Shown here: piece after piece, positions 10,195-25,512 of the stretch
Numbering within the stretch: position 1 is the first letter of the stretch
Layout of the letters: every line of letters begins with the position of its first letter
Made by a program: the position numbers and the translations under genes
Notes under the pieces: model-generated
Database searches by the model: none
The model's input: the letters and a program-made list of their open reading frames with translations, nothing else
What the model was told of the DNA's origin: nothing
From: Fuscovulum ytuae
Lineage (GTDB): Bacteria; Pseudomonadota; Alphaproteobacteria; Rhodobacterales; Rhodobacteraceae
Direction: 5' to 3'
Assembly: GCF_029953595.1 (NCBI RefSeq)
Contig: NZ_CP124535.1
Span: 372,001-436,000 of the forward strand
DNA: 64,000 nucleotides

Positions 10195-10199
10195 AGAGG

Positions 10200-10730
10200 T
10201 TACAGCAGATTTTCCGCCCAGATGGGGGTAAAGCTGACCACGGACCCGGTCACCGGACGATAGTCCCGCCCGTCGCCGATCCGACCAAACAGCATCCGAT
10301 TGACCCAGTAATGGCCCACGATCACCACCTCGCCGTCCGCTATAGGGGGCAGATCGCGCCAAAAATCCATCACCCGCTCGGTGACTTGGGCAAGGCTTTC
10401 GCCACCATCTATAGGGGTCGTTGCATGGGCCTTCCGCAAGCTAAGGGATTGCTTTCCCTTGGGGCGCCCTTCCAGAATGCCGAAATCAATCTCCATCAGG
10501 CGCGGATCGGTTCGCAGGGGAAGGCCCGTCGCCTGCGCCAAGGGGGCCGCCGTCTGCACCGCCCGCTGCAAGGGGCTGGCCCAGATCTGCCCGATCCGCC
10601 GCCCCGCCAGCGCCCGCGCCACCCCCTCTGCCTGCGCCTCTCCGATGGCCGTCAAGGGCAGGTCCTGTCGCCCCACATAGCAGCGCCCATTCCCTGCCGT
10701 CTCGCCATGGCGGGCCAAATGAATCAACAC
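10200..10730 (-). CDS. Histidine phosphatase superfamily protein
   Basis: 176 residues. The RHG motif is at LARHGETAGN (His8), and the second catalytic His is in VVIVGHYWVNRM near residue 140. The central LMEIDFGILEGRP matches the family's acid-residue region. The size fits small cobC/GpmB-like phosphatases, which remove phosphate from sugars, nucleotides or small phosphoesters. It is the last gene of a nine-gene minus-strand operon and overlaps the preceding glycosyltransferase by 7 bp. In that setting it could dephosphorylate a product or intermediate made by the operon's kinase-like proteins; this is inference. Confidence 0.9.
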   Translation of the reverse strand: MLIHLARHGETAGNGRCYVGRQDLPLTAIGEAQAEGVARALAGRRIGQIWASPLQRAVQTAAPLAQATGLPLRTDPRLMEIDFGILEGRPKGKQSLSLRKAHATTPIDGGESLAQVTERVMDFWRDLPPIADGEVVIVGHYWVNRMLFGRIGDGRDYRPVTGSVVSFTPIWAENLL

Positions 10731-11851
10731 CTTAGCACCCGTTCATAAAGCGCCTCTACCGCCGCCGTCGCGCGCGGCCAGCCGAAGTCGGCGGCCCGTT
10801 TCCGCCCCGCCACCACCATTTTCGCCCGCATCTTGGAGCCGGTTTCCGCCATCGCACGGGCCAGTTCCCCTGCATCCTCCACCGCCACCAACCGCGCCGC
10901 CCCCCCTGCCACTTCGGGGATTGCGCCCGCGTTGCTCGCAACAACCGGGCAGCCCGCCGCCATCGCCTCGACAATCATCAGGCCGAACCCTTCCCACCGC
11001 GAGGGGGCCACCAGCAGGTCAAGCGCCGCATAAACAGTCGCCATGTCTTTGATATGGCCAAGAAAAATGATCCGATCACCAGCCCCCGCCGCAGCCACGC
11101 GGGCCTTCAATATCTCGGTCAAGGCGGTATCTTCCGCTGCACCGATCAGGGCGAACTGCCCCAAATGCCCCCGCGCCAGCAAGTCCAGCGCCGCCTCTAC
11201 GAACAGGTCTTGCCCTTTCTGGCGGCAGATACGCCCCACGCAGCCGATCACCTCGGCCTCGGCGTCCAACCCAAAGGCTGCCCGTGCCTCCGCCTTTGAT
11301 TGGTTCCCAACTTTCTCGCAGTCGATGCCGTTCGGGATGACCTCAACCCGGTCAATCGCCACCTGCAACCGCGCCGCAACATGCTTTTGCACCGCACCTG
11401 AAACGGCCACCAACGCATCCGTCCCCGCCGCCATCCGCCGCTCCAGTGACAGGGCCGAAGACCCCGGAAGCCACTTGTCATCATATTGGTTGTGATAGTG
11501 AGAAATGATCCGCAAACCATTGTCACGCAAAAGAAAACCAGCCATTCGTCCGAATATGTTCGGCCTGAAACTGTGGCTATGCATGACGCCGATCTCTTGT
11601 TGCATCAGCCAATCGGCCAGTTGCGCCACCGCGTCGATCTTGTCTGCCCCCAGCGCGACATGCACGGTCGCACCAGCCGCTTCGAACTTCTGCCGCAAGG
11701 CCCGCGCGGCTTCTGGTTCGGCAGCAGGCTTCAGGCAATAGACATGCGGCGCAAAGCAGTTCGCCCGACCATGGCGCACCAGTCCCAGAACCGCCTCTGG
11801 CACACCACCCGTGCCAAGCGAGTTAAGAATATGGGCGACCCGTACCGTCAT
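10724..11851 (-). CDS. GT4 family glycosyltransferase
   Basis: 375 residues with the GT-B plan of family 4. The N-lobe opens VRVAHILNSLGTGGVPEAVLGLV and contains HSHSFRPNIFGRMAGFL. The C-lobe has VIPNGID, then GRICRQKGQDLFVEAA, and the E-x7-E nucleotide-sugar site in PSRWEGFGLMIVEAMAAGCPVV. It would add a sugar from a nucleotide donor to a soluble or lipid-linked acceptor in the cytoplasm. Its ATG overlaps the stop of the upstream kinase-like gene by 4 bp. Confidence 0.9.
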   Translation of the reverse strand: MTVRVAHILNSLGTGGVPEAVLGLVRHGRANCFAPHVYCLKPAAEPEAARALRQKFEAAGATVHVALGADKIDAVAQLADWLMQQEIGVMHSHSFRPNIFGRMAGFLLRDNGLRIISHYHNQYDDKWLPGSSALSLERRMAAGTDALVAVSGAVQKHVAARLQVAIDRVEVIPNGIDCEKVGNQSKAEARAAFGLDAEAEVIGCVGRICRQKGQDLFVEAALDLLARGHLGQFALIGAAEDTALTEILKARVAAAGAGDRIIFLGHIKDMATVYAALDLLVAPSRWEGFGLMIVEAMAAGCPVVASNAGAIPEVAGGAARLVAVEDAGELARAMAETGSKMRAKMVVAGRKRAADFGWPRATAAVEALYERVLRC

Positions 11852-12960
11852 GCCAGACTCGCTGCCTCTGCCTTTTCCAGGCCGGCAATGACCCTCCGGC
11901 TTGGCGTACCGCCCTTGCGGATCAGGTGGCGCAGCCTTTCCAGTTCGGCCTTCGCGCGTGCCGGACGCAGGTTTGCAGGAGGCGATGAAATTCTGGAATA
12001 TCCCTCAATAACAAACTGTTCCGCGTTGAAGCTGTGATCCAATGCGGCATCCTGCAAGCCGCATAGCAGCGTCGCAAGGTCACGTCCCGCATCGCCCGCC
12101 CCGGCCCGGTCAAAGTCAAGCAGGGTCAGGTGATCTGGATCCGTCCCGCGATCCACAAGAACCTGGGCCAGCGATAAATCGCCGTGACAAAGTGACAGAT
12201 GCTTTTCATTCCCCTTTGGCAAAGCGTCCCATATCCTTTGCAATCTTGGCGCAAGACCCGGGATGGCGGCTTGCAACCACGGCAACGGATCGTTCGGTAC
12301 ATCCACTTCTGGTAGCCCAGCAGGATCACAATCATGCAAGCGCGCGATCAGCGACCCAAGCGCCTCAAGTCGATTTGCGTTGGCAAGTCCGCCCTCAAGC
12401 GCCTCGCCTTGGCAGAAGGTAAGGCAATAGCCGATCTGATCGGTTTGAAGCCGGGGGATTGGGATGTACTGGCCAGATGCCGCACGCTCGACCATCCTAT
12501 GGCGTGAGATAGCTTCGACAAGCCGTTCTTTTTTCTTGAATTTTTGGATAATCGGTTCGCCGCTGCCCGCCATCATCACGGTGGCGCGGCGTCCGGGGAT
12601 ATAGCGCAGGATGCGTGTTGCGGGGTCTGCGAGCGGCTCATCAAGGTGCAAGGCCGGATCGTCTTCCAGATCGAACCAACACAGCTTTTCCGGCCCAAGG
12701 CATAGTGTGCGCGCCTGCAATCCCGGCGCTGATCGTAGCGGGGCTTGCACCGTCCATAGGATCTGTTTCAGCCGCAAGACACCATCCCGCAGGCGCGTTT
12801 GGATGTCGGTTGATACTGCCGCTCCGGGCTTGCAAAGCAGGGCTTGTGCCGGACGGTCCGCCGCCACAAGGGCATCAGCCTTGGCCAGAAGCGACGCGTT
12901 TTCGCAATGGCCGATCAACGCATAGCGCTGCACCAGTGGGGATGGGGCCAGCATCATCAT
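11848..12960 (-). CDS. APH-fold kinase-like protein 1
   Basis: 370 residues, starting at the first of three consecutive ATG codons (12960), which overlaps the upstream stop. The N-terminal 110 residues match nothing I recognise. Residues 120-370 form an aminoglycoside/choline-kinase-like fold: RYIPGRRAT with a lysine at IIQKFKK (about 140), the loop CHGDLSLAQ (His259, Asp261, Gln266) and the metal site LLDFDRAGAGDAGRDLA. Classical APH enzymes have Asn where this protein has Gln, so activity should not be assumed. A small-molecule O-kinase, perhaps for a sugar in the pathway, is the simplest reading. Confidence 0.82.
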   Translation of the reverse strand: MMMLAPSPLVQRYALIGHCENASLLAKADALVAADRPAQALLCKPGAAVSTDIQTRLRDGVLRLKQILWTVQAPLRSAPGLQARTLCLGPEKLCWFDLEDDPALHLDEPLADPATRILRYIPGRRATVMMAGSGEPIIQKFKKKERLVEAISRHRMVERAASGQYIPIPRLQTDQIGYCLTFCQGEALEGGLANANRLEALGSLIARLHDCDPAGLPEVDVPNDPLPWLQAAIPGLAPRLQRIWDALPKGNEKHLSLCHGDLSLAQVLVDRGTDPDHLTLLDFDRAGAGDAGRDLATLLCGLQDAALDHSFNAEQFVIEGYSRISSPPANLRPARAKAELERLRHLIRKGGTPSRRVIAGLEKAEAASLA

Positions 12961-14117
12961 GCCAGCAGGACCTTGCGAATATCCTGCGCGGCCGACGCGC
13001 CATCCCGCAGTGCCAGGAATTTTGCGGCATGGATGCGTGCAAGACCGTGAAACCAATGGAAATTGGGGCCTGCTGCCTGCCAAAGAACCTTGCGCGCGGC
13101 AATACAAGCCTTGGTCGAGAAGGTCCCGATGACCGATCCAAGGTCCAATCGGGCATCCAGCAGTGCAAGGTCGAAATCAGGATCGCCCCGCTTCATGCTT
13201 TCGGTGTCGATCATGGTGACCCGGCTGGATTCAACGAAGAGATGATCAGGTTTCAGGTCGGCATGAAGTGGGACATGGTGCAAGACAGGTGGATTGGCTG
13301 CGCAAGACTCGATGATGCGCCGCGCCTGCTGGCCCGCTTCGACATCGGCATCAAGAATAAGGCTGGCCGCCCGGCGGGCAGGGAGCAGATAGTCGTCAAG
13401 CGTCATGGCAAGCAGCGCGGGCGCGTCGCAGGACCACAAGACCCGCATCGCCTCATGGCAACGGTTCAAGGTCGTTGTGATCGCCTCGGTATCGCCTTCG
13501 ACCAGAATATCCTCAAGGCTTTCACCTTGGGCGGCGGCATAGGCGATGATCCCGCGTTCCGCCAAAAGACCCGTGACAGGGGTTAGGCCCAAGATACTGC
13601 CCTCGATCTGGCGTTCCAGTCTGGAATGAAGATCGGCATGCGCCTGGGCCTGCATGTTGCGCGCGACCTTCACGAAGAAGGGGCGGCCATCATCCGACAT
13701 CCAGCGAAAGGTTGCCGAAAGACCCGGACGGTAGCGAACAATTTGCGGCAAAGACTGCGCATTGCAACCAAGAAGCCGAGGAGCCAAGTCTCGGCTTTCA
13801 TTTAGAAAAGTTGCAAGTTCCGGCAGCCTGTGATCCATTGGAAAGGCTTCGAAAGCGGCAGGGATCTTCTCATCGATCCGCAGATGGGGGCGCTTGATCC
13901 GCAGATGCAAAAGCTTTTCTCGGCGCAGGAACCAGATCACGCCTTCCCGTCGGGTTTTTCCGATCCCAAGGGCGACATGAAGGGCGGCTCGCAAGCCGGG
14001 ATGGTGACGCAGGCGCAGCACCTCCACTTCTGCGGCGCCTGTGATGCGCGACAGATCCTCCTGCGACAAAGTCTGAAGGCCGCTTAGAACGGGGTCCTTT
14101 GGAAAAGCGGTTCTCAT
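12957..14117 (-). CDS. APH-fold kinase-like protein 2
   Basis: 386 residues. As in its neighbour, a N-terminal region of about 125 residues precedes a kinase-like fold with RYRPGLSATF, a probable ATP-binding lysine in RPFFVKVARNM (Lys150), HADLKPDHLF (His285, Asp287, and His292 where Asn is usual) and the metal-binding MIDTESMKRGDPDFDLALL. RYxPGxxAT is shared with protein 1, so these two probably arose by duplication. It overlaps both flanking genes by 4 bp. The substrate is unknown; a degenerate, non-catalytic partner is possible given the replaced Asn. Confidence 0.8.
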   Translation of the reverse strand: MRTAFPKDPVLSGLQTLSQEDLSRITGAAEVEVLRLRHHPGLRAALHVALGIGKTRREGVIWFLRREKLLHLRIKRPHLRIDEKIPAAFEAFPMDHRLPELATFLNESRDLAPRLLGCNAQSLPQIVRYRPGLSATFRWMSDDGRPFFVKVARNMQAQAHADLHSRLERQIEGSILGLTPVTGLLAERGIIAYAAAQGESLEDILVEGDTEAITTTLNRCHEAMRVLWSCDAPALLAMTLDDYLLPARRAASLILDADVEAGQQARRIIESCAANPPVLHHVPLHADLKPDHLFVESSRVTMIDTESMKRGDPDFDLALLDARLDLGSVIGTFSTKACIAARKVLWQAAGPNFHWFHGLARIHAAKFLALRDGASAAQDIRKVLLA

Positions 14118-15295
14118 ACCTCATCCTCCAGCAGGGCGGAAAGGTTGGCGCGCGGCTCGCCGCTAAAGGCCCAGAGCATGGCCAACCGCAACCGGGCCAC
14201 GCGTCGCCATACTGCGATGCGTGACAGCTTGATTTGTGGGAAAAGCCGTTCTGCAGCCGTGGCATAGGCGGCGAAGCTGCGGTCTTTTCGCAGCCCGGCA
14301 AGATCGAGATGCGCTTGCAGATTGCCCAAATCCATGGCCGGATCGCCGCGCGAAAGCGTGTCGAAATCCAGCAATCCGGCCAAGCCACGAAACAGAAGTA
14401 TCTGCCCTTCATGCAGGTCGCGGTGGCAGGTCACCGGCTCCATGACAGGCAATTCACGCAGGGCTTTGCGGATCGACAGTAGTTTCGGCTGAATTTTGTG
14501 GCCGAGATCGGGGAACACCGTGATGACGCGGTCTTCCCATTGCGACAAAAGCGCGATTTCATCCTCTGCTGTCCAATGCGGCGCGTCGCATCGTGACTGT
14601 TGCAGGGCAGACAGCGCCCGCGCTGTCGCATCAATGCCGGAAAACCCACGCAGTCCGCGAAGCTGCATCGGATGGCCGGGCAACGCTGCGTAAAGGGCAA
14701 GGCCAAGCGCCCGATCCACACCCAAGGGACGGGGAAGCCTCAGGTCATTATTGTGGGACATGGCCTGCCAGAGCGACTGATGCCGCGCGATGGCCGCCGC
14801 TGCGGCTTGCGCAGTGGGGGACCGCAAGCGCGCATAAGCGGTTCCATCGGCGTGGCGGATGCGCAACACGGCCCTCCGGCCAAGCCGATGGGCGACCAAT
14901 GCGATAGTGAAAGGGCCCTTCAAGCCGATGTCCGTCAGGCAGCGCTCCGCTAGTTCTTTGTCGGATAACAGGCGCAGGCCGGGAAGCTTTGCGTCGGTTC
15001 CAGGCCGGCGCAACAAAACCCCGGCCTTTGCATTCCAGCGCAGGCTATCCGGTTGGCCCATGCGCGCCAGACGCTCAGTCTCGGCGTCGCGCCGATCTGC
15101 TGCAGCTTGGCCGAACCATTCAAGAATCCAGACCTGACCCTGATGCAGAATTTGCGCATGGGGCGCGCGACCTGATGGAAAATGCATGCGCATCAACTGG
15201 ATCGGACCGAGGCCGGGCAGCTGCCCGCCGATCATCGCATGGATCAATTCGGTCGGGGGAAGCGTTGGGGTCGGATTGGGCATATGCTGTGTCAT
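14114..15295 (-). CDS. APH-fold kinase-like protein 3
   Basis: 393 residues. The N-terminal 110 residues are not recognised; a kinase-like fold then follows with KGPFTIALVAHRLGRRAVLRI as a glycine-poor N-lobe, the loop CHRDLHEGQILLF (His291, Asp293, Gln298) and LLDFDTLSRGDPAMDLGNL as metal site. Gln again replaces Asn. Genes for proteins 1, 2 and 3 are contiguous, each overlapping the next by ATGA, so their products are probably made in similar amounts and may act in sequence or as a complex. It follows directly after the ABC exporter gene. Confidence 0.8.
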   Translation of the reverse strand: MTQHMPNPTPTLPPTELIHAMIGGQLPGLGPIQLMRMHFPSGRAPHAQILHQGQVWILEWFGQAAADRRDAETERLARMGQPDSLRWNAKAGVLLRRPGTDAKLPGLRLLSDKELAERCLTDIGLKGPFTIALVAHRLGRRAVLRIRHADGTAYARLRSPTAQAAAAAIARHQSLWQAMSHNNDLRLPRPLGVDRALGLALYAALPGHPMQLRGLRGFSGIDATARALSALQQSRCDAPHWTAEDEIALLSQWEDRVITVFPDLGHKIQPKLLSIRKALRELPVMEPVTCHRDLHEGQILLFRGLAGLLDFDTLSRGDPAMDLGNLQAHLDLAGLRKDRSFAAYATAAERLFPQIKLSRIAVWRRVARLRLAMLWAFSGEPRANLSALLEDEV

Positions 15296-17061
15296 GCCTT
15301 GCGCTCCAAGACTAGCGGGGGAAAGCCGTCTTCCGCGAACTTGCGATCCACAAGATGCACGATGCGGTCGGCCATGCTGAGTGTCAGGTCGTCATGCGCG
15401 ATCAGAAGGGTGGTCCGATCCCGGCTGATCATCTTCAAGGTCTGGACAAGTTCGGCAGCCGTCGTGCGATCAAGTCCGGTCAGCGGTTCATCCAGAATGA
15501 GGATCGGGGCGTCCCGCAATAAGGCGCGCGCGATTGCAATTCTTTGACGCTGACCACCGGAAAGCGTTTCGCCGCGTTCGCCAAGGACGGTGTCATAGCC
15601 TTGGGGAAGGCGGCGGATAAACCTGTCCGCACCCGACGCGCGGGCGGCGGCTGCAATGTCTTCCTCATCGGCATCAAGACGCCCATATGCGATATTTTCG
15701 CGGATTGTGGCGGCGAAGAGGGGCGAGTCCTGAAGCACGACGGCGATCTGTTCCCGAAGCGAGTCCAGCGTCAGGTCACGGATATCGGTTCCATCCAGCA
15801 AGATGCGGCCGGATTGCGGTTCATAAAACCGCATCAGCAGTTTGGCGACCGAGGATTTTCCCATCCCGCTTGGTCCGACAAGTGCCACGGTTTCCCCTGC
15901 ACGCAACGTAAGGGTGGCATTCTTCAAGACAGGTTCGCAGCCGGGATAGGCGAAGGTCAGATCTATAATGCTGATCCAGCGACGCAGCGAATGTGCTTTG
16001 CGGGCATTCGGCCGATCGGTGATTTCTGGATTAAGGTCAAGGACTTCCAGCAAACGTTCGCCGCTTGCGGTGGCTTTTGCGACCCGGGCTGACATGCTGC
16101 TCATGCGCCGGATAGGTTTGTGCAGGGTGGTCAGATAAGCCGTGAAGACCAAAAGATCGCCCGGACTGATCCCCCCGGCCTGAACACGGGTGACGCCATA
16201 CCACATCACCAGACAGGTGCCGATCGCAAGAACGACCTGAACCAACCTGTCCATCTCTGCCGAGATGCGCGTGGCCATGACACCTGCTTCGGCTGATGAC
16301 AGGTTTTGTTCAGAAAAGCGGGCCTCTTCATATGCTTCGTTGGCAAAGCCCTTGACCAGAGAGATGCCTGAAATGCCTTCAGTCATGACAACGGCGATAC
16401 GCCCCTCGCCGCGCCTTTGGTGGCGTGCGGCATCCTTGATGCGGCCACCATAGCGGTGGGTCAGAAAGGCAAGTGCGGGAAGAATAGCCATGGCGGCAAG
16501 GGTCAGTCGCCAATCCATCAGTGCCATGATCAGGACGGTCCCGATCAGAACAAGGCTGCGCGCTGCAAAAAGAACGCCGGCCTCGATCAGCAAATCGCGC
16601 ATCATCCGCACGTCGCTGGTAAGGCGTGACACAATCTCGGCCGTTGATACGCTGTCGTGGAAGGAATGCGACAGACGTTGCACATGACGGTACAGATCGA
16701 GCCGGATATCGGCGACGACCCTTTGTCCTACCCCGGCGATCAAAGTTGATTGGACATAGCCTGCCAGACCGCCCAGCACGGCGATCCCAAGAATGGCTAT
16801 ACAGCAGAGCCATAGCAAAGATTGCCCCGACCCAACCCAAGAGAGGACTTGGGTCATCACGAAATCCGGCTGTTCCTGCGGAATGAGAATGCCATCAAAG
16901 ACAATCTTCACAGGCCAAGGGCGGATGATCTCGGCCAAGGCCACAAAGCACATGGCAAGAAAGCCCAAGGCAAGCTTGGTCCGATAGGGCCGCGCGTGGG
17001 GTGACAGTCGGCGCAGCAGCCGCCAGATGGTGGCGGGGTGCAACTTGCGATTCTTGCTCAT
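15292..17061 (-). CDS. ABC exporter, fused permease-ATPase half-transporter
   Basis: 589 residues, the usual length of MsbA/LmrA-type half transporters that work as homodimers. The six-helix membrane domain covers about residues 25-330 and includes EIIRPWPVKIVFDGIL. The ATPase domain has Walker A GPSGMGKSS, Q-loop VLQDSPLFAATIRENIAYG, signature LSGGQRQRIAIARALL, Walker B ILILDEP and switch His in LLIAHDD. There is no peptidase C39 domain and no membrane-fusion protein nearby, so a lipid-linked or small glycosylated product is a better cargo guess than a protein. It sits mid-operon between a glycosyltransferase and kinase-like genes. Confidence 0.93.
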   Translation of the reverse strand: MSKNRKLHPATIWRLLRRLSPHARPYRTKLALGFLAMCFVALAEIIRPWPVKIVFDGILIPQEQPDFVMTQVLSWVGSGQSLLWLCCIAILGIAVLGGLAGYVQSTLIAGVGQRVVADIRLDLYRHVQRLSHSFHDSVSTAEIVSRLTSDVRMMRDLLIEAGVLFAARSLVLIGTVLIMALMDWRLTLAAMAILPALAFLTHRYGGRIKDAARHQRRGEGRIAVVMTEGISGISLVKGFANEAYEEARFSEQNLSSAEAGVMATRISAEMDRLVQVVLAIGTCLVMWYGVTRVQAGGISPGDLLVFTAYLTTLHKPIRRMSSMSARVAKATASGERLLEVLDLNPEITDRPNARKAHSLRRWISIIDLTFAYPGCEPVLKNATLTLRAGETVALVGPSGMGKSSVAKLLMRFYEPQSGRILLDGTDIRDLTLDSLREQIAVVLQDSPLFAATIRENIAYGRLDADEEDIAAAARASGADRFIRRLPQGYDTVLGERGETLSGGQRQRIAIARALLRDAPILILDEPLTGLDRTTAAELVQTLKMISRDRTTLLIAHDDLTLSMADRIVHLVDRKFAEDGFPPLVLERKA

Positions 17062-18227
17062 GCGGCCTGCGCCTTTGGCAGAAGGTCAAGGATGCGGCGG
17101 GCATTCGCGCGCCAATCGTGATGGCTGGCCTGATGCGCTGCCTTGTGGCGCAAGTGGCAGGAGAGGTCGGGGTCAGTCGCCACTTTTTGCAACCCATCCG
17201 CCAAGGCCACAGCATCGCCGGGCCGAACCAGCAATCCGCTGCCGTCTTGCCCCAAAAGATCTGCGGTCTGGCCAATACGGCTTGCCACGATGGCACGCCC
17301 CATCGCGAGGTATTCAAAGAGTTTCAGGGGCGAAAAGTAGTTGTTGACCATTGCCGGGTAGGGGGCGGCAGCCACATCCATGCGCGCAATGAGGCCCGGA
17401 AGGTCCTGATGCGCTACCCATCCGGTGAACGTAACTGATCCGGTCAACCCAAGTCCCTCAGCTCGTTGCATGAGGGTGTCGCGTTCCGGCCCATCACCGA
17501 CGATTAGAAGATGCGCTGGAAGGCGATCCCGTACCAGGGCAAAGGCGTCAAGCAGCACCTCCGTGCCATGCCATGCCTTCAGAGATCCGGTGAAGCCCAC
17601 AACGAAGTCGGTATCGGCAATTCCCGGAACGCGGGCGGCCGCAACTGCCGGGTGGAAGAGAGACGTGTCAACGGCATTCCCGATCACATGCACCTTCGAC
17701 CGTGCCGCCCCGCGCGATTGGGCATAGTCGGCGACCCCCCGAGAAACGACGACAAGTGCGGCTGCCTTTGAAAAGACCTCTGACTCGATCGCACGGGCCT
17801 CGTCGCGCAGCACGAATTTGCGAAATAGCGCCTGTTCTTCGACCAGCGGCGCATTGACCTCGATCACGGCGGGCAGCCCAAGCCGCTGCCCCGCGCGGAC
17901 GCCCGCCGCCGACCATAGCGCGTAACGTTCGTAGATAAGGTCGAAAGGATGGTCGCGGTGACGCTGTTCAAAAAGCCGTTGCATTGCTGCGGCAAGCTCG
18001 ATCAGGCGGCGTTCCTTTGCCTCACGGTCAGCGGCGGTCGGAAAGTCGGGGCCAAGGGCGATCACGGGAAATTCGGCCGCGTCCGTTCCGGCTTCGGCGC
18101 AAAACACCTCTACCTCGTGGCCTTCGTCCCGAAAGGCCTTGATCATGGCGCGAACATGGACCGACCCGCCCTTTTGACCAAAGACAGGAATGCCGCCATC
18201 GGCGCAAAGATAGGCAATGCGCATCAC
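17058..18227 (-). CDS. GT4 family glycosyltransferase
   Basis: 389 residues. The N-terminus MMRIAYLCADGGIPVFGQKG has the glycine-rich donor-site loop of GT-B enzymes. DLIYERYALWSAAG follows, then VIGNAVDTSLFHP, GFTGSLKAWHGTEVLLDAFA, and a C-terminal site with YFSPLKLFEYLAMGRAIVAS, where Glu is in the usual place of the family's second acidic residue. The gene overlaps its neighbours by 4 bp on both sides. Donor and acceptor are unknown. Its position before the exporter gene suggests it acts on the exported product. Confidence 0.9.
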   Translation of the reverse strand: MMRIAYLCADGGIPVFGQKGGSVHVRAMIKAFRDEGHEVEVFCAEAGTDAAEFPVIALGPDFPTAADREAKERRLIELAAAMQRLFEQRHRDHPFDLIYERYALWSAAGVRAGQRLGLPAVIEVNAPLVEEQALFRKFVLRDEARAIESEVFSKAAALVVVSRGVADYAQSRGAARSKVHVIGNAVDTSLFHPAVAAARVPGIADTDFVVGFTGSLKAWHGTEVLLDAFALVRDRLPAHLLIVGDGPERDTLMQRAEGLGLTGSVTFTGWVAHQDLPGLIARMDVAAAPYPAMVNNYFSPLKLFEYLAMGRAIVASRIGQTADLLGQDGSGLLVRPGDAVALADGLQKVATDPDLSCHLRHKAAHQASHHDWRANARRILDLLPKAQAA

Positions 18228-19438
18228 GCGGCCCCCCTGATCTGTCGCCCGTAGGCCTTATGGAAAAGCCCCGCTAACGCCGCGCTGCTGGCCCTAAGGT
18301 CGAACTGCGCTTCGGCCCGCAGGCGACCAGCTTGTCCCATCAAGATTGCCCGCGCGGGGTCACGGATCAGGCTTTGCAGGGCCTCTGCCAATGCGGCGGG
18401 GTCACCGGGTGAAACGAGGTGACCCGTCTTGCCCTCCGCGACGATCTCCGGGCCACCAGTGACGGTCGTGGTCACCACAGGCAGACCTTTCGCCATCGCT
18501 TCAAGAAGGACCGTCGGCAATCCATCGCGATCCCCATCCGGCGTGACGATGCACGGGAGGGTAACAAGACTTGCCTCTTCAAGAATATGGGTCAGTGTTT
18601 CTTGCGGCATCGGACCCAGAAGTTGAACGCGCTCATCAAGGCCAAGCTTCGTGATCTGCTCTGTCAACGCACCATGAAGTGGGCCGTCGCCGATGATGCG
18701 GCAGTCGAAATCCGTGCCCCTTTCGGCCAAGCTTGCGCAGGCGTCGATCAGGTCGCGAAAACCCTTCTTTTCGACCAGACGCCCTACGGCGAGGATGCGT
18801 CCCGGTTTGCGTCTCGCGGGTCCGGCAGGCCGGAAGGACGAAAGGTCAATTCCATTATAGATCCGATGAATGCGGGTTTCTGCTTCGGGACAAAGCGTCG
18901 TCAAATGGCGCAAGTTGAAGTCAGACACGGTCACCGTGAAAGCTGCAGCAATAAGCTTTGTCCTGCGCTTGGCTGTATCGGTTTCTGGGTCTACGTAATC
19001 ATGATAGATATCCCGCGCATGCGCTGTCAGCGAAAACGGCAGGCCTGCACTGCGCGCGGCAAGAAGGGCCACCGTCGTCGCATCCGACGCGAAATGTGCA
19101 TGCAGGTGGTGAAGTCCCCGCGCCCGTGCCAGCTCTGCCACCCGTTCTGCCTTTGCGATCAGCCGGGACGCTGCGGCGGCAGTCGTTCCCGCGAAGAGTG
19201 CCGCATCCTCATCATCGGGCGTCATCATAGGGCCCGATGTATCGGCTAGGCGGGTAATCCGGGCTTTTAGCTTGGCAAGCCCTGCGTGGCGGGGTTCATC
19301 GGGCGGGTCAAGAAGCGAAAACACCTCAACCGTGATGCCCCTTGCTTCAAGGGCCAGCACTTCGTTCAGGATGAAGGTTTCAGAAAATCGCGGAAAGCGT
19401 TTGACGACATATCCGACCCGTAAGTTGCGATCATCCAT
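18224..19438 (-). CDS. GT4 family glycosyltransferase (ExoL/WcaL-like)
   Basis: 404 residues. VGYVVKRFPRFSETFILNEVLALEARG near the N-terminus is typical of exopolysaccharide and colanic-acid type GT4 enzymes. Further landmarks are HLHAHFASDATTVA, IHRIYNGIDLSSFRP, AVGRLVEKKGFRDLIDACA, and GDRDGLPTVLLEAMAKGLPVVTT. It overlaps the REC-glycosyltransferase gene by 8 bp. Resemblance to polysaccharide enzymes favours an oligosaccharide or polysaccharide product for this operon, but no polymerase or flippase of the Wzy/Wzx type is present in the window. Confidence 0.9.
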   Translation of the reverse strand: MDDRNLRVGYVVKRFPRFSETFILNEVLALEARGITVEVFSLLDPPDEPRHAGLAKLKARITRLADTSGPMMTPDDEDAALFAGTTAAAASRLIAKAERVAELARARGLHHLHAHFASDATTVALLAARSAGLPFSLTAHARDIYHDYVDPETDTAKRRTKLIAAAFTVTVSDFNLRHLTTLCPEAETRIHRIYNGIDLSSFRPAGPARRKPGRILAVGRLVEKKGFRDLIDACASLAERGTDFDCRIIGDGPLHGALTEQITKLGLDERVQLLGPMPQETLTHILEEASLVTLPCIVTPDGDRDGLPTVLLEAMAKGLPVVTTTVTGGPEIVAEGKTGHLVSPGDPAALAEALQSLIRDPARAILMGQAGRLRAEAQFDLRASSAALAGLFHKAYGRQIRGAA

Positions 19439-21017
19439 GCGACACCTGCAAACTCTGTTCAGTCTCTTTCGGTGCGCGCTGCTTCAGCAGTGCGGCGATA
19501 TGAACCGCCGCCCGTGTGGCCCCGTCGAATGCCAGAGAAAGTTGCGCGGGACGTATGGATGGCGATGCGCTGGTCCCGCTTAGGTGAAGCGACAAGGCCT
19601 TGGGTGTGAGGTCGGGCCGTTCAATGACCTGAGCAAGCCCAAGAGAGCGCAGCCGTTCCGCACGGATGCGCTGCTCGGATGAAGGTCCGACACGTGGCAC
19701 GACGAGGGCAGGCACACCTATGGCGAGGGCCTCGGTCACAGAGTTGTAGCCGCCCATCGTCACGAAAAGGTCGCTCGCCGCGATGCGGGCTGGCATGTCG
19801 TTGACCTGATCAAGGAAGGTCACATCCAGTTCCGCCGCGCGTATATGCAGCCTTTCGCGAAGTTCGTTGTCCATCAAGGGACCAGCGATCAACGTAAGCT
19901 CGGGGCGGTAACGGCGTGGCAGCAGGGCCTGTGCCTCAAGCGCTGTAGCAAGCAGGAGGAATGCATCCCGACCCCCACCGCCCGAAACGAGAACACGGCG
20001 CGGTCCTTTTTCGCGGCGCTGCATGCGCCGGGCCTGCACTGTTGTGACCGCGCCGCAATATTGCACATGGCCCGGACGTAGAGCATCAAGTCCATAGGCT
20101 CGGCTGGATGGGTAGAAATCGGCATTCCCATAGATCAGGACATCGTCATAAAGCCCCGCGATCACTTTATCCGTTCCGGTTTCGCACCATCGGCTGCGTG
20201 TTCGTTCCGGCTCATCTAGGATGTCTCGTAGGCCAAGGATTGTCTGCGTTCCATGCATTTCCCTCAGGCGGCGCAGAGGGGTCATAAGTTCGTTCCAAAC
20301 ACCTGTCGGTTCGTGGTCGACAAGAAAGATGTCCGGCTTGAAGGTATCTGCGACCTGCTGAAGTATCCCTGCTCGCATCGCGCTTGCGGTTTCCGCATCG
20401 ATGCGCAGGCTGCCCGACTGCCAGCGATCCCGGCCCAGCTTGGCCAGAGAGGGCAGTTTGATGTAGTCGATCCCCGGCTTTGGCGCAAAAATCATACCCG
20501 CCGGGCAGCCCACCAACATCAGAACCGAAAGGCCGGGGACGCGGGCCACCAGTTCTTCGGCAATCGCGCTGTTGCGGCGCATATGTCCCAGCCCGATTGT
20601 GTCATGCGAATACATCATCACCGACGGACCGGGGCGTCGCTGACCTTGTGGCAGGTTCTGCGCCAAGAGTGCAGCGACCAATTCGGACAGTCGCGCCATC
20701 GCGAAGGGCTTTGACAGGAAAGCCGCCACCGCGATTTCTTCGGCACGCAGGCGGTTTGCCGTGGTATCTTGACCGCTCATGACGATGACCGGGCAATCGC
20801 GCAGCCTGTCGATATGCGCAGTCAGCACCTCTAGCCCGTCGCCATCCCCCAAAGAGATATCCGCGATCACGAGGTCGGGCTGCATCCCCGACCCAAGGGC
20901 AAGCCGCGCCGCAGAGGCAGAAGGCGCATGCGTCACGGTATGCCCCGCACGGCCCAGCAAGATAGAGATATTTCGGGCGATGATTGGTTCGTCTTCGATA
21001 AGAAGGATATCCGACAT
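19431..21017 (-). CDS. Response-regulator receiver domain fused to a MurG-like (COG4671-type) glycosyltransferase
   Basis: 528 residues in two parts. Residues 1-120 are a receiver domain: DILLIEDEP with the acidic pair, phospho-acceptor Asp53 in VIADISLGDGDG, and Lys103 in FLSKPF. Residues 132-510 are a GT-B enzyme with MMYSHDTIGLGHMRRNSAIA as the N-lobe loop, SGGGGRDAFLLLATAL and TMGGYNSVTEALAIGVPALVVPR in the C-lobe, as in MurG-related transferases. It is the first gene of the nine-gene operon and is divergent from a histidine kinase gene 206 bp away. Control of glycosyl transfer by phosphorylation is the direct inference. The second such transferase (24532-25512) lacks the receiver. Confidence 0.88.
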   Translation of the reverse strand: MSDILLIEDEPIIARNISILLGRAGHTVTHAPSASAARLALGSGMQPDLVIADISLGDGDGLEVLTAHIDRLRDCPVIVMSGQDTTANRLRAEEIAVAAFLSKPFAMARLSELVAALLAQNLPQGQRRPGPSVMMYSHDTIGLGHMRRNSAIAEELVARVPGLSVLMLVGCPAGMIFAPKPGIDYIKLPSLAKLGRDRWQSGSLRIDAETASAMRAGILQQVADTFKPDIFLVDHEPTGVWNELMTPLRRLREMHGTQTILGLRDILDEPERTRSRWCETGTDKVIAGLYDDVLIYGNADFYPSSRAYGLDALRPGHVQYCGAVTTVQARRMQRREKGPRRVLVSGGGGRDAFLLLATALEAQALLPRRYRPELTLIAGPLMDNELRERLHIRAAELDVTFLDQVNDMPARIAASDLFVTMGGYNSVTEALAIGVPALVVPRVGPSSEQRIRAERLRSLGLAQVIERPDLTPKALSLHLSGTSASPSIRPAQLSLAFDGATRAAVHIAALLKQRAPKETEQSLQVSHG

Positions 21018-21097
21018 GTTTGCCCCCGGCGGATCTTGTGCTGGGGGTCATCCTAGGGTGTTGGATCGCTTGCCGCTGCCTGCTCTAGCCGCGCTTT

Positions 21098-21134
21098 GGG
21101 GCAAATCGCCGGGGCAAAATGGGGCAAAAGCCCC
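21098..21134. promoter_or_regulatory. Triple GGGGCAAA repeat and palindrome between divergent genes
   Basis: GGGGCAAA occurs at 21098, 21111 and 21121. The last copy is part of the inverted repeat GGGGCAAAAGCCCC (21121-21134). The block lies in the 206-bp region between the REC-glycosyltransferase and histidine kinase genes, 80-117 bases from the former's start. It is a candidate binding site for the regulator encoded at 22605-23828. Confidence 0.5.
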
Positions 21135-21223
21135 ATTACCCTCTCTCCGTTCCATCCGACCTGATTTGCGCGCGACGCAAGTTGTGGTTTGGTGCAATCA
21201 CGATGGACCCAGCGGAGGATGGC

Positions 21224-22603
21224 ATGAGCCTTCTGATCGGCGCCACTAGTCTGCGCGATTCACCGCATCATTTGCGGATGCTCACGATCTTTTTCGTGAT
21301 CAGTTTCGTTGCAATCTTTTCCACGGCAGTGATCCTGTCGACGGCGCTTTCACGGTACATCATCGACCAGATGATGATGCGCGATGCGATCGTTTCGACG
21401 GAATTCCTGAACTCCATTGTCCATGTTGAACAGGCCGCCCCCTATTTCCTTGGCATTACGGACGCGCCAACCCCACCTGACGTAAAGGAATTCGTCTCCC
21501 ACGTTTCACGTTTGCCGGATGTCTTCCGGGCGAATGTCTATGGTTTTGACGGACATATTCTTTGGTCTAGCGATCCACAGATGGTTGGAAAGAAATTTGA
21601 TGACAACGAGGAACTCGCCGAGGCGATGGAAGGTCGGTTGGAACCTGAGTTGAGCGTGATCAGTCGCGGCGACAAGGATGAACATGTCGGCTTTCCGGAC
21701 GGCGTGGACCGCTTTATCGAATATTACATTCCGATCCGGCGCGAAATCACGGGTGAGGTTGTGGGCGCTGTCGAAGTGTATAAGGCACCGGAAAGCCTGC
21801 TTGCCTCTATGACCGAAATTCGAAAACTGGCTTGGCTTGGTGCGCTTGCGGCAGGTTGTGCGCTGTTTGGGGGGCTTGCCGTCGTTGTCGCCTATGCCAG
21901 CCGCGTCTTGCAGCGGCAGGAAGCCCGTATCGTCGAAACCGAACGTCTCGCCGTGGTAGGAGAGATGGCCTCTGCCGTCGCGCATGGTTTGCGCAATCCG
22001 CTTGCGGCCATCCGATCCTGCGCCGAATTGACTATGGAAGACGACATCCCCGATCACAGCCGGGACGCCATCCGCGACATCACCAACCAAGTTGACCGTC
22101 TGGAAAGCTGGATTCGCGCCTTCCTGATCCGCAGCCGCAACGACCCCGGCAGCCTTTCCGACCAGGCGCAGATCGATCAGGTGATCCAGCGCTGTTTGGA
22201 AAACTTCGAAGCACAGATGCGCAAGCGGGGCATCGTTGCGGTGATGTCGGGAGGAAGGGGCCATCCGATTGCCTTGGCACAACCTTCCGAGCTTGAGCAG
22301 GTCCTGAACTCGATCATCTCGAACAGTATCGAGGCCATGCAAAAGGGGGGGAAACTGGGTATTGGCTGGTCCACCCGGCCTGACGGCAAAGTGGCCATCA
22401 TTATCACCGACACCGGCCCCGGTATCCCGCCAGACATGGTTGGGCGCCTGTTCAAGCCTTTTGAAACTGGCAAGGCGGCGGGGCTTGGCGTTGGTCTCGC
22501 GCTGGGCCGTCGCATCGTAGAACGGATGGGGGGCTCCCTCGATCTGAAGAACCGCCCGAGCGAGGGTGTGGAAGTCACCCTCATCCTTCCGGGGCATGCT
22601 TGA
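21224..22603 (+). CDS. Membrane sensor histidine kinase
   Basis: 459 residues from the ATG at 21224, which has GGAGG 5 bases upstream. Helix 1 (about 19-43) and helix 2 (about 203-225) enclose a periplasmic domain of about 155 residues that looks Cache-like (ANVYGFDGHILWSSDP, YYIPIRREITGEVVGAVEVY). The phospho-acceptor His254 lies in EMASAVAHGLRNPLAAIRS, followed by a HATPase domain with EQVLNSIISNSIEAM, DTGPGIPPDMVGRLFKPFETGK and GLGVGLALGRRIVERMGG. The downstream regulator gene begins 1 bp after its stop. Likely targets are that regulator and perhaps the receiver domain fused to the divergent glycosyltransferase. Confidence 0.93.
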   Translation: MSLLIGATSLRDSPHHLRMLTIFFVISFVAIFSTAVILSTALSRYIIDQMMMRDAIVSTEFLNSIVHVEQAAPYFLGITDAPTPPDVKEFVSHVSRLPDVFRANVYGFDGHILWSSDPQMVGKKFDDNEELAEAMEGRLEPELSVISRGDKDEHVGFPDGVDRFIEYYIPIRREITGEVVGAVEVYKAPESLLASMTEIRKLAWLGALAAGCALFGGLAVVVAYASRVLQRQEARIVETERLAVVGEMASAVAHGLRNPLAAIRSCAELTMEDDIPDHSRDAIRDITNQVDRLESWIRAFLIRSRNDPGSLSDQAQIDQVIQRCLENFEAQMRKRGIVAVMSGGRGHPIALAQPSELEQVLNSIISNSIEAMQKGGKLGIGWSTRPDGKVAIIITDTGPGIPPDMVGRLFKPFETGKAAGLGVGLALGRRIVERMGGSLDLKNRPSEGVEVTLILPGHA

Positions 22604-22604
22604 C

Positions 22605-23828
22605 ATGACTGACATTCTGATCATCGAAGACGAGGACGTTCTTGCCCGTTCGATTGTGGGTTTTCTTGAAAGACGCGGTTTTTCGGCGGGATTTGCGATT
22701 GACGGACAAAGCGCGGTGGCCCTTTTCCGGCGTGAGAGACCGCGATTGGTGATCCTTGACGTCCGACTTGGGCGCGAGAATGGGCTTGATCTTCTTCCGA
22801 CCCTGCGAGGGATCAACCCCGAAGCGCAGATTGTTGTGATGACAGGGCATGGCGATGTTGGCATCGCGGTCGAGGCGATGAAGCGGGGTGCACGGGATTT
22901 TCTGATGAAACCCGCCCCGCTTGCGATGATCGCCGGGATGGCTGCTGAATTGATCCTTCAGGATAATGCGCGCCCCGTGGATGTAACGGGGGTGGACAGG
23001 ATCGTTGGGCGATCCTCTGCAGCCATTGACCTGCGTGCCACTCTGCGCCGTCTGGCTTCGGCGGCGGAAGGGCTGCAGCCGCCCGGCGTTCTGCTGAGCG
23101 GTCCGCGGGGCAGTGGCAAAACCCTCGCCGCACGGGCCTTGCACGAAACGGTTCAGGACATCCGCGGCAAGATGGAATGCATCGACTGTTCGGTCGGTGA
23201 AGGTCAGGTCGAAACAGCCTTGCAGGCCGGGGCGCGGGTTCTGATGCTAAGGCATGTCGATGCTATGGGCGAAGAAGAGCAGGGAAAACTCGTCCGCGCT
23301 TTGGAGGCCGATCCGGGACTTTGGGTTATTGCCACCACCGCGCGCAACCTTGGCGCTTTGGAGCGTAAGGGAAATTTCCGTCCCGACCTTCTTTATCGCA
23401 TACAAGTTGGCTGGGTCGATGTACCCCCGCTTGCAGATCATAGTTCCGATATCCTGCCTCTGGCCGAGGAATTCGCCCGCCGAACCGCGTTCCGCTTTTC
23501 GAGAACGCGTCCTCGTCTGACCGGGGAGGCAAGGGTAAAGCTGTTGCAACATGATTGGCCCGGCAATGTCGCGGAACTTGAGAACTGCGTTGAACGCGCC
23601 GTCATTCAGTCGAACGACGGCATGATCAGCGCCGGCGATATCAAGATCATCGATCATTCCGAACGTGAAGAAGCGGCCGTGCCCAACCTGACGAAGATGG
23701 AGGAAACCGCACTGGTCAAGGCATTGCGGGTCACGGGCGGAAATGTTTCGCGCGCCGCTGAGATGTTGGGAATATCCCGGGACACGCTGCGCTATCGCAT
23801 GGAGAAATTCGGCATTTCAAGGCGTTAA
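22605..23828 (+). CDS. NtrC-like response regulator lacking the sigma-54 contact loop
   Basis: 407 residues from the ATG at 22605; an in-frame ATG at 22596 would overlap the kinase gene. The receiver domain has Asp52 in ILDVRLGRENG and Lys102 in FLMKPAP. A shortened AAA+ domain has Walker A GPRGSGKT (166-173), ARVLMLRHVDAM in the place of Walker B, and FRPDLLYRIQVGWVDVPPL. The GAFTGA loop required to engage sigma-54 RNA polymerase is absent, and the segment between Walker A and B is short. A Fis-type helix-turn-helix ends the protein (VTGGNVSRAAEMLGISRDTLRYRM). It should act through ordinary sigma factors, as NtrC does in Rhodobacter capsulatus. It converges with a kinase-like gene, overlapping 4 bp. 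Confidence 0.9.
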   Translation: MTDILIIEDEDVLARSIVGFLERRGFSAGFAIDGQSAVALFRRERPRLVILDVRLGRENGLDLLPTLRGINPEAQIVVMTGHGDVGIAVEAMKRGARDFLMKPAPLAMIAGMAAELILQDNARPVDVTGVDRIVGRSSAAIDLRATLRRLASAAEGLQPPGVLLSGPRGSGKTLAARALHETVQDIRGKMECIDCSVGEGQVETALQAGARVLMLRHVDAMGEEEQGKLVRALEADPGLWVIATTARNLGALERKGNFRPDLLYRIQVGWVDVPPLADHSSDILPLAEEFARRTAFRFSRTRPRLTGEARVKLLQHDWPGNVAELENCVERAVIQSNDGMISAGDIKIIDHSEREEAAVPNLTKMEETALVKALRVTGGNVSRAAEMLGISRDTLRYRMEKFGISRR

Positions 23829-24535
23829 ATCAGATATTCAACCTGATGCAGAAGGGAGGTATCGCCCTTTTCCGCCTGTTTCAGCGCCCTGCGAAAGATT
23901 GCAAGTGTCGTGAAATCCCCAAGGCTGAGCAGATCAATGCCGCCTGCCATGGCACGCCATTCCCGAAGGACCGACCGCCGCGCCTGCTCTTGCCGATCTG
24001 CCAGCGCCATGTCCGGTGGACCTTGTTGGGTGGCGAGCCAGGCGATCAGATTGCCGAGATCGGCTTCACTTGGGCCAAGGGCAAGATCATCCAGATCAAG
24101 AAGCCAGCTAAGACCCTCGGCGTCGCGGATCACCTGCGCCGGGTGGAAATCGCCGTGGCAGAGCCTTTGCATCTCGTTCCTCAGCCGCGGCATGATTTGC
24201 CTGATCCGGTTGGTCATCCAGATAGGGGCCAAGGAAAGACGGGGATGGATGCGGGCGAGGGGATCGTAAGGTTGCAGGCTAAGTCCGGGTGGCTTGATCC
24301 GATGCAGATTGACCAAGGGCGCGAGTAGGTCGGGCTTTGAAGCAAGAAGTGCCGTCGCAGTGTCGCCATGAATGCGAGGAAAGCACAAGGTCAGGTCGCT
24401 CGTCCGGGTCGGAACTGGCGTTGTAATCCCTGCCTCGTGCAGCGCCTTTGCGCGCGCCAAGGCGGCCTCTGCTGCTGCTGCCGAAGAAAAGCGCTTTAGA
24501 ACAGTGCTTTGCCCGATGGTAACGCGCGCGTTCAT
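23825..24535 (-). CDS. APH-fold kinase-like protein 4, short form
   Basis: 236 residues, lacking the N-terminal region of the other three. The loop is LCHGDFHPAQVIRD (His127, Asp129, Gln134), followed by LLDLDDLALGPSEADLGNL as the metal site. A probable ATP-binding lysine is Lys14 in TVLKRFSS. As in proteins 1 and 3, Gln replaces the usual Asn. It is the second gene of a two-gene unit with the glycosyltransferase upstream (4-bp ATGA overlap) and ends against the regulator gene on the other strand. It probably belongs to the same pathway as the nine-gene operon. Confidence 0.82.
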   Translation of the reverse strand: MNARVTIGQSTVLKRFSSAAAAEAALARAKALHEAGITTPVPTRTSDLTLCFPRIHGDTATALLASKPDLLAPLVNLHRIKPPGLSLQPYDPLARIHPRLSLAPIWMTNRIRQIMPRLRNEMQRLCHGDFHPAQVIRDAEGLSWLLDLDDLALGPSEADLGNLIAWLATQQGPPDMALADRQEQARRSVLREWRAMAGGIDLLSLGDFTTLAIFRRALKQAEKGDTSLLHQVEYLI

Positions 24536-25512
24536 CCCGTGGCCAAGATCGCTTGCGCTGCTTGGTCTTCACCGCTCGGCCCCAAGATGACAGGCGGGCG
24601 GCGCAGGCGGTGCTGAAGGACCTTGGCGAGCCAAAGGCCGTTTGTCGGGTGGATCGTGCCGTTTGGCGATAGGTGGGGGGCCCAATGGGCGACGCGGTCG
24701 TTTTGGTTGTCGATGGAGCGGGGGATGGCGATCAGATGCGCGGGAGTGGAGGTGGTGGCGAGTTCGAGGACGGAATTGTAACCAGCCGTCGAAATCACGG
24801 CATCTGCTGTCATGAAGTGTTGGTTGAGGTTGCCGCCGGGGTCAATTGTTCCATCGATTCCAGAGACTTGGCCAAAGGCCTTCGCGCGCGGTCCTATGGC
24901 CTGCACCGCATCAAAAGGGACAGGGCAGGCCGCACGTAGTTGGGAAAGAAGAGTCCCAATCCGATCATAGATCTCTGCCGAGGTTTGCGCGGTGCCGCCA
25001 CCGCCCGTCGCAATAAGCAGCAGGGCGCGCCTTCGGGCGGGCGGCGCTGGCATTTCTGTATTTCGGTAAATCCAACCCACAGAAACAAGGCCTTGGCTGG
25101 TTCCATCAGGCATTTGAGGAACCCAGTGATCGGCCGGATTGGCAATCAGGATACGAGTCCAAGGGCAGTGGTGGGGGTGGAAGCGCGAAAGATGCTCGTG
25201 CGGAGTTTCTCGCAGAATGAGGATGCGTGCTTTGGCGCGATCCTCCAGTTCCGGCAGGTTCATTGTATCGAGAACGGCTATGAAGGGCGTGGGGCCTGCC
25301 GCTGCCGGCATCTGGTCACGCTCTGCTACGGCTATGTGGTCAAAGGCAGAAATATCTTCCTTATCAAGGCCTTGTGGGGCGGCGTTGGTAATCAGTCTGA
25401 GGTGGCGGTTGGGGGCGGCGCGGCGCAGGGCGCGGGCGATGGTGGCGCTGCGGCGCAGGTGACCGAGGCCCGATTTCGACGTGGCGAAGAAGACGATCTG
25501 GGTAGAGGACAC
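24532..25512 (-). CDS. MurG-like (COG4671-type) glycosyltransferase, stand-alone
   Basis: 326 residues from a GTG at 25512. That start is chosen because the protein then opens with VSSTQIVFFATSKSGLGHLR, aligning with the transferase part of the receiver fusion; the extension to an upstream start runs into the 12-bp repeat array and looks non-coding. The GT-B features are GLGHLRRSATIARAL in the N-lobe, IATGGGGTAQTSAEIYDRI in the linker region, and ISTAGYNSVLELATTSTPAHLIAIPR at the donor site. No good Shine-Dalgarno is visible, so the start is uncertain. It is a paralogue of residues 132-510 of the fusion, without the receiver domain. Confidence 0.85.
   Translation of the reverse strand: MSSTQIVFFATSKSGLGHLRRSATIARALRRAAPNRHLRLITNAAPQGLDKEDISAFDHIAVAERDQMPAAAGPTPFIAVLDTMNLPELEDRAKARILILRETPHEHLSRFHPHHCPWTRILIANPADHWVPQMPDGTSQGLVSVGWIYRNTEMPAPPARRRALLLIATGGGGTAQTSAEIYDRIGTLLSQLRAACPVPFDAVQAIGPRAKAFGQVSGIDGTIDPGGNLNQHFMTADAVISTAGYNSVLELATTSTPAHLIAIPRSIDNQNDRVAHWAPHLSPNGTIHPTNGLWLAKVLQHRLRRPPVILGPSGEDQAAQAILATG

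Follow-up and report, generated by a model that had tools for sequence, protein, structure and literature searches.

Control of glycosyltransferases is usually attributed to gene expression, c-di-GMP or tyrosine kinases. In archaea, response regulators with a BcsA-like glycosyltransferase domain (PF13641) have been described, for example, MTH_548 (PMC5847659, in the available part of the text), and this fusion was the only response regulator with a glycosyltransferase output that we met in the literature. In the available part of a preprint (PMC10274813), NtrC of Rhodobacterales is likewise described as lacking the GAFTGA motif, NtrC of Rhodobacter capsulatus as acting through sigma-70, and Caulobacter as having many NtrC sites near polysaccharide genes. 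Here, we describe a cluster of 13 genes, the island, in the aquatic bacterium Fuscovulum ytuae, within a stretch of 64,000 nucleotides (the window; G000:C1:372001-436000) of a 4.19-Mb genome with 3 contigs. It encodes a receiver (REC) domain fused to a glycosyltransferase, four further glycosyltransferases, four APH-family kinases, an exporter, a phosphatase and a two-component pair. We give a probability of roughly 60% to the reading that the cluster is a conserved, horizontally acquired regulon that would make and export a short phosphorylated glycan, either a free oligosaccharide or a glycolipid.

Gene 9 of the cluster (REC-GT; 19431–21017, minus strand) combines a receiver domain with a MurG-like GT28 enzyme in one protein. 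The fusion had been recognized in the first-pass annotation of this DNA as a REC-glycosyltransferase; the family of its enzyme is GT28/MurG-like rather than GT4. Pfam reports Response_reg and Glyco_tran_28_C, the latter with 46.1 bits against a cut-off of 22, and the score against the NCBIfam murG equivalog (36.6 bits) lies below its cut-off of 250.25. The alignment of REC-GT has 17 rows, four of the 21 loci being omitted with an incomplete or broken REC-GT. The receiver residues Glu8, Asp53, and Ser/Thr81 are kept in all 17 rows and Asp9 and Lys103 in 16, so that the canonical phosphorylation residues of response regulators are intact in 16/17 aligned REC domains; the remaining locus (L080) has Gln9 and Arg103. 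In the GT28 part, Gly142, Gly144, His145, Glu429, and Gln449 are invariant (17/17), and we take these residues to be the counterparts of the MurG donor-site residues. A sequence search of solved structures led to receivers and MurG. The AlphaFold model (predicted local distance difference test, pLDDT, 80) matches GT-B enzymes, with the macrolide glycosyltransferase 2iya as the best match (E = 1e-13) and MurG 1f0k at E = 1.6e-10. This resemblance to natural-product GT1 enzymes would suit secondary metabolism, with a glycosylated, aminoglycoside-like compound as the product. The APH proteins would then shield the producing cell, and the phosphatase would restore the activity of the compound once it had been exported; the presence of APH proteins together with an exporter also recalls antibiotic self-protection. 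We consider such a pathway very unlikely: none of the 13 island proteins corresponds to an aminocyclitol, polyketide synthase, non-ribosomal peptide synthetase or other scaffold gene, diverged kinases, two to four in number, are conserved across groups, and the GT4 enzymes are of the cell-envelope type.

In the preferred reading of a regulated phosphoglycan pathway, the REC domain possibly gates the activity or assembly of REC-GT through phosphorylation of Asp53. L080 (10001–11584), from a Rhizobiaceae-group metagenome-assembled genome (MAG), is the sole locus without an adjacent histidine kinase and regulator, and it also lacks the operator and has altered REC residues. Altered REC residues in a locus that lacks the kinase would be expected if that kinase acted on REC, and L080 may represent decay of the switch once the kinase is missing. 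We also considered whether the REC domain was derived from the neighboring regulator, and found no support for this, as other receivers of the same genome match it equally well or better.

The distribution of the gene set was analyzed by scanning genome contigs with a seven-row REC-GT alignment, which yielded 20 named loci, or 21 with the window. L066 and L067 are near-duplicates (99.7% over 3762 bp), leaving 19 distinct loci. These span Rhodobacterales, Rhodospirillales, and the one Rhizobiaceae-group MAG. The carriers include Pseudaestuariivita, Silicimonas (order Rhodobacterales), Tropicibacter, Palleronia, Marivita, Defluviimonas, and Tabrizicola, and, at a greater distance, Pelagibius and Denitrobaculum (both Rhodospirillales), a Kiloniellaceae assembly, and the MAG. 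The core order is GT28, APH / regulator, kinase / REC-GT28, GT4, GT4, ABC exporter, APH, APH. Its recurrence across the 20 named loci bears out the earlier view of one tightly coupled, co-inherited set, and this neighborhood search with REC-GT places the co-occurrence well beyond close relatives.

Presence counts include the window, and their denominators are the loci whose contig reaches the gene. The histidine kinase and regulator lie beside REC-GT in 20/21 loci (the exception being L080), and the second GT28-like glycosyltransferase (GTx) and the fourth kinase (APH4) are present in all 18 loci that reach far enough. The first GT4 enzyme (GT4a) follows REC-GT in 18/19 loci, with L079 as the miss, and the exporter and APH3 are found in 14/14 (counting L079 would add a miss); the exporter is placed after APH3 in L074 and L075. 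APH2 lies downstream in 12/14 loci; it is absent in L072, and L070 has its single further APH match upstream, so that none downstream was counted. The third GT4 enzyme (GT4c) and the phosphatase occur in 6/13 loci, and APH1 in 3/13, in this genus only; the L073 contig ends before these genes. Thus, the thirteen-gene set of the first-pass annotation does recur, but with the phosphatase, GT4c, and APH1 optional, its core comprises 10 genes. The overlap between REC-GT and GT4a is 8 bp in 13 of the 17 measurable loci and 17 bp in the other four. Because the order recurs in distant species and this overlap is kept, a chance arrangement is disfavored. In L080, the GTx–APH4 pair leads directly into REC-GT, which indicates that the two units belong together. 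In Tropicibacter alexandrii (L072:10001-12757), REC-GT is interrupted and the GT4a frames are split, reflecting either decay or an assembly error.

REC-GT was detected at E ≤ 1e-80 in 3/385 genomes of the class, two of them over its full length, and at E ≤ 1e-100 in 3/61 genomes in the order of genome G741. GT28 enzymes of this kind were found at E ≤ 1e-40 in 95/394 family genomes; five of these 95 matches, including one fragment, begin at the REC start. About one in four of the sampled Rhodobacteraceae-type genera thus has a GT28 relative, almost always without REC, which suggests a common underlying pathway that we did not find explained in the literature.

Signal control of the cluster had been proposed earlier, and it agrees with the position of the kinase and regulator beside REC-GT and with a shared operator. 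The sensor histidine kinase (HisKA and HATPase_c; plus strand) is assumed to occupy 21203–22603. The nominal reading frame (21119–22603) probably starts too early, as a start at 21119 would place the operator copy at 21120–21135 within the gene. Similarly, the NtrC-like regulator (plus strand) is placed at 22605–23828, which fits the homolog alignment, and its nominal start at 22566 is probably too early. The regulator has Response_reg, sigma-54-type AAA+, and Fis-type helix-turn-helix (HTH_8) domains in Pfam. The NtrC-like architecture named in the first-pass annotation therefore stands, but GAFTGA is absent in 11/11 aligned homologs, and the protein is not a classical sigma-54 activator; nine other regulators were left unaligned, and a reading of all frames of the 20 loci found GAFTGA only in L075, where it belongs to an unrelated activator. 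Within the same genome, the closest other copy is 30% identical (search at E ≤ 1e-30), so the regulator is a separate paralog.

The palindrome TGGGG-N6-CCCCA is located in the gap between the histidine kinase and REC-GT in 18/20 loci (17/19 without L067). In the 17 loci for which positions were tabulated, it precedes the REC-GT start by 91–120 bp; in the window, the copy TGGGGCAAAAGCCCCA (21120–21135) lies 103–118 bp before this start. It also occurs upstream of GTx in 8/18 loci, a region that played no part in defining the motif, and the copy of the window there is TGGGGCATTTCGCCCA (25588–25603), upstream of GTx and APH4. When the two promoter regions of the 21 loci were searched with ≤ 1 mismatch, using dinucleotide shuffles as the control, there were 32 matches in 19,082 bp vs 1.43 expected, and the remaining 330,000 bp of the same loci, mostly coding, contained 6. 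A second copy 23 bp further on has at least 7/10 bases in 9/17 loci and 6/10 in two more. L069 and L077 have an additional copy just after the histidine kinase, and the palindrome stands on three units in Pelagibius (L070). No palindrome was found in L080, which has no regulator. As the palindrome precedes both units, these are placed in one regulon, and the NtrC-like regulator probably binds it and so controls both.

All 13 genes are open frames at the positions given here, and 12/13 proteins pass Pfam cut-offs, in line with the first-pass gene list. The nine minus-strand genes overlap by 8, 4, 4, 4, 4, 4, 4, and 7 bp, within the 4–8 bp described earlier, and the adjoining divergent kinase and regulator and the unit of a glycosyltransferase with kinase 4 were also found as described. 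Behind REC-GT, in the direction of transcription, lie GT4a (18224–19438; EpsE/WcaL-like), GT4b (17058–18227), and an MsbA-like ABC exporter with fused ABC_membrane and ABC_tran domains (15292–17061). They are followed by APH3 (14114–15295), APH2 (12957–14117), and APH1 (11848–12960), for which the ATG at 12960 was taken as the start and the longer mechanical frame from 13107 was not used, and by GT4c (10724–11851) and a histidine phosphatase of branch 1 (His_Phos_1; 10200–10730). The second unit, also on the minus strand, consists of GTx (24532–25512, with a likely GTG start; nominal frame to 25653) and APH4 (23825–24535). GTx matches Glyco_tran_28_C weakly (E = 0.044, below the cut-off), and is called GT28-like because of its GLGHLRRS motif and its genomic place.

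A rival explanation is an ordinary surface-polysaccharide locus of accessory type (capsule, exopolysaccharide or lipopolysaccharide), whose kinases would do no more than decorate the polymer and whose REC would be just a regulatory leftover. GT4a is nearest to the exopolysaccharide families EpsE and WcaL, although below their NCBIfam cut-offs, and its sequence search of solved structures led to general GT4 enzymes. Among the related clusters described below, class C relatives adjoin UDP-glucose dehydrogenase and a deacetylase-like gene, and the class C cluster on pSymB of S. meliloti adjoins a polysaccharide lyase. Nevertheless, the Pfam search, which covered the 13 island proteins, identified no Wzx, Wzy, Wzz, ABC-2 transporter (KpsM/Wzm) or initiating glycosyl-phosphate transferase, and the absence of Wzx/Wzy and chain-length genes noted earlier holds within the same limits. 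The exporter is a fused MsbA-type protein, the kinases number four, and the REC phospho-Asp is retained in 17/17 rows. We therefore regard a surface-polysaccharide locus as unlikely, though worth serious consideration.

All four kinases exceed the Pfam APH cut-off of 23.2 bits and differ strongly from one another. Lys150, Asp287, and Asp304 of APH2 are invariant in 12/12 aligned proteins, and HRDxHExQ and DFD of APH3 in 14/14; the catalytic Asp and the metal-binding Asp are therefore invariant in both alignments. The AlphaFold model of APH3 has a pLDDT of 89, and its second fold match is a glucosamine kinase, aligned over the whole length with a root-mean-square deviation of 13 Å; sequence searches of solved structures gave only weak matches for APH3. 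The glucosamine kinase match would suit sugar salvage or recycling, in which the APH proteins would phosphorylate sugars at the anomeric position to supply nucleotidyltransferases, and the glycosyltransferases would use the resulting products. GalU-like nucleotidyltransferase genes are indeed present in L068 and L069 (305 and 321 bits, just under the NCBIfam cut-off of 326.8), with an operator copy at their start; in L068 it is the gap palindrome that stands there rather than before REC-GT. However, the nucleotidyltransferase occurs in two loci only (a gap of the same size in L077 was left unscanned), GalU uses glucose 1-phosphate from ordinary metabolism, and an exporter without a cluster-wide importer points to synthesis rather than salvage, which makes this explanation quite unlikely. 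The first-pass statement that nucleotide-sugar genes are missing is correct for the island, but not for other members, which have the GalU-like genes or, in L070, GalE. Pelagibius L070 also has an extra APH gene, and DUF1194 is found in L070 and L074. In Pelagibius litoralis (L070:6908-9773), REC-GT is directly preceded by the extra APH gene and a gene for an outer-membrane porin of the alginate-export type, and an operator copy stands ahead of these two genes; a porin in this place fits an exported saccharide. Taken together, the accessory genes (GalU-like, GalE, porin) favor UDP-sugars and export.

Several points weigh against the phosphoglycan regulon. The phosphorylation of the glycan by the kinases, its export, and its identity are predictions. 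In the kinases, the Asn of HxDxxxxN, the usual APH motif, is replaced by Gln in APH1, APH3, and APH4 and by His in APH2, and the likely ATP-lysine position of APH3 is Arg in 11/14 and Lys in 3/14, and with these positions altered APH activity is only plausible. The fold matches of APH3 are generic, since similar scores were obtained for aminoglycoside, macrolide, choline, glucosamine, homoserine, and methylthioribose kinases, and the APH2 assignment in the distant L074, L075, and L070 has only 24–26% identity. REC-GT is broken in L079, with no GT4a behind it. The argument from L080 rests on one MAG, and L080 still retains Asp53. The operator motif was first spotted by eye in the kinase/REC-GT gaps, and at ≤ 1 mismatch it was not found upstream of GTx in 10/18 loci or in the kinase/REC-GT gap of L065 and L079. 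In the source genome, the pattern TGGGGSAWWWSCCCCA matches nine places at ≤ 1 mismatch, only two of them in the island; of the seven matches outside the window, two are inside candidate reading frames and the rest lie between genes or at gene ends. With two mismatches allowed, TGGGGSAWWWSCCCCA has 126 matches on both strands of this genome vs 33 for the reversed control.

On the reading that we favor, a membrane histidine kinase would sense a cue and phosphorylate the NtrC-like regulator, which would bind the palindromes observed upstream of both units and, lacking GAFTGA, might act at a sigma-70 promoter, as NtrC of R. capsulatus reportedly does. The GT28 and GT4 enzymes would assemble the glycan from nucleoside diphosphate sugars, probably UDP-sugars, in view of the MurG-like residues and the GalU-like, GalE, and UDP-glucose dehydrogenase partners in relatives. 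Phosphorylation of Asp53, probably by the same kinase, would gate the activity or assembly of the first GT28 enzyme. The APH-type kinases would phosphorylate sugar hydroxyls of the precursor or product, the optional phosphatase would trim or recycle, and the MsbA-like exporter would carry the product across the inner membrane. More tentatively, and with some doubt, we suggest that control operates at two levels, transcription through the GAFTGA-less NtrC-like regulator and enzyme activity through REC in the first glycosyltransferase, and that the output is an undescribed class of phosphorylated exported glycan that spread horizontally among Alphaproteobacteria. If this is true, a phospho-aspartate switch fused to GT28 would constitute a direct route from signal to glycan, as well as a handy tool, and Silicimonas algicola, Pelagibius litoralis, and Tabrizicola sp. 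TH137, named strains in which the cluster also occurs, would be carriers of an uncharacterized phosphoglycan pathway.

The gene set is a discrete island adjoining an ABC-importer gene, and relatives show the empty site. DNA of the island-free relative G005 aligns to window positions 28493–25652 and then 10023–8564, with 1.3 kb of other DNA between; this jump from 25652 to 10023 places the island at about 10024–25651 (about 15.6 kb). At the search thresholds used, G005 gave no REC-GT and no exporter match. The distance from the importer permease to the MocA gene is about 250–295 bp in G001, G004, G006, and G018, and about 17 kb in the source genome, G008, and G010. G001, G004, and G006 gave no REC-GT or exporter match at the thresholds used, and G018 carries its own copy of the cluster on a different contig from the permease/MocA site. 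The exporter and REC-GT are present in 4/19 genomes of the genus. On the favored reading, the island would have been acquired horizontally.

The importer operon itself (substrate-binding protein, ATPase, and permease; 25650–30112) was considered as a part of the system and rejected, because it adjoins the cluster only in the window and the two nearest loci, L061 and L062, and is found beside the MocA gene in relatives without the island. The gap of 137 bp at 25513–25649 (if GTx starts at 25512) contains an operator copy and an inverted repeat, and the GTx/APH4 pair is therefore not simply the tail of the importer operon. The repeat (25616–25644) has perfect arms of 11 bp and separates GTx from the permease gene of the importer; it resembles a terminator of the importer operon, and was not listed by the terminator scan; simple promoter and terminator scans gave counts below the shuffled expectation. 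Directly after the island, a 567-aa frame (8383–10086, minus strand) has no Pfam match; its homolog (64%) precedes MocA in G005, and none was seen in the stretches of G001 and G006 that were read. An anti-phage defense system was also rejected: among the ten island proteins scanned with PADLOC (the histidine kinase, regulator, and APH4 were left out), the models match only the exporter, through its generic ATPase part. A second group of glycosyltransferase genes elsewhere in the source genome (G000:C1:3510573-3526502), with four PF00534 matches, is perhaps an ordinary polysaccharide region.

Two groups of related clusters were compared with the island. Class B, of which five genomes (L056–L060) of the six found were read, shares the GT28 enzyme, GT4a, GT4b, an MsbA-like exporter, and APH-like halves, with a divergent histidine kinase match in four of five. 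In contrast to the island, its GT28 has no fused REC, its regulator is of the OmpR type (L056 and L057, by Pfam), and both APH-like halves lie within one frame of 700–840 aa, which Pfam identifies as APH in L056 and which has BLAST similarity only in L057. Two of the seven class B/C loci scanned have one palindrome match each, both coding. In class B, the palindrome is limited to single matches within coding regions, in two of its five loci. Class C comprises nine stretches (L034–L042), Ruegeria TM1040 (RS03915–RS03945), and S. meliloti pSymB, and is found in Rhodobacteraceae and Rhizobiaceae. It shares the GT28–GT4 pair, its GT28 being 31–38% identical to that of the island, and often a further GT4, a histidine phosphatase (seen in L034, L035, L036, L041, and L042), and a second GT28. 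It differs in that the nine stretches read have no REC and no APH match, and there is no close exporter, although L037, L038, and L041 have a distant ABC match (22–24%) alongside. UDP-glucose dehydrogenase and MscS-like genes adjoin class C (Pfam, L034 and L036 scanned), as do deacetylase-like genes in those checked by Pfam or annotation. The pSymB cluster of S. meliloti is L084, and the Ruegeria TM1040 cluster (L085:10004-16547) lies on the megaplasmid. A link to the S. meliloti capsular polysaccharide (KPS) genes smb20804/smb20805 (PMC5539429, available part) was considered and set aside, because the record carries no annotation by which these tags could be tied to the place. The class C GT28–GT4 pathway is apparently widespread in Rhodobacteraceae and Rhizobiaceae, and uncharacterized.

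In the open literature, with subscription papers largely outside the search, we found no description of the gene set or of a REC-GT28 fusion, which agrees with the earlier remark that no pathway of this composition had been described. The exporter has the fused architecture of transmembrane and nucleotide-binding domains seen in MsbA and ChvA/NdvA, but differs in falling below both NCBIfam cut-offs (410.6 bits vs 602 for MsbA and 247.3 bits vs 585.4 for ChvA/NdvA). The regulator resembles the NtrC of R. capsulatus and Caulobacter, as presented in the available part of PMC10274813, in its NtrC architecture with the sigma-54 contact loop deleted; it differs in belonging to one conserved cluster with its own palindrome, and in having a 30%-identity paralog in its own genome. 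Like REC-GT, the archaeal fusion joins REC to a glycosyltransferase and has a narrow distribution, but from the available part of PMC5847659, its domain is cellulose-synthase-like and its hosts are Methanobacteriaceae, whereas REC-GT is a GT-B enzyme of the GT28 type in Alphaproteobacteria, encoded together with a kinase and regulator of its own in a conserved operon. Compared with these systems, the island would be a two-component-controlled glycan cluster that is unusual for its REC-GT28 enzyme.

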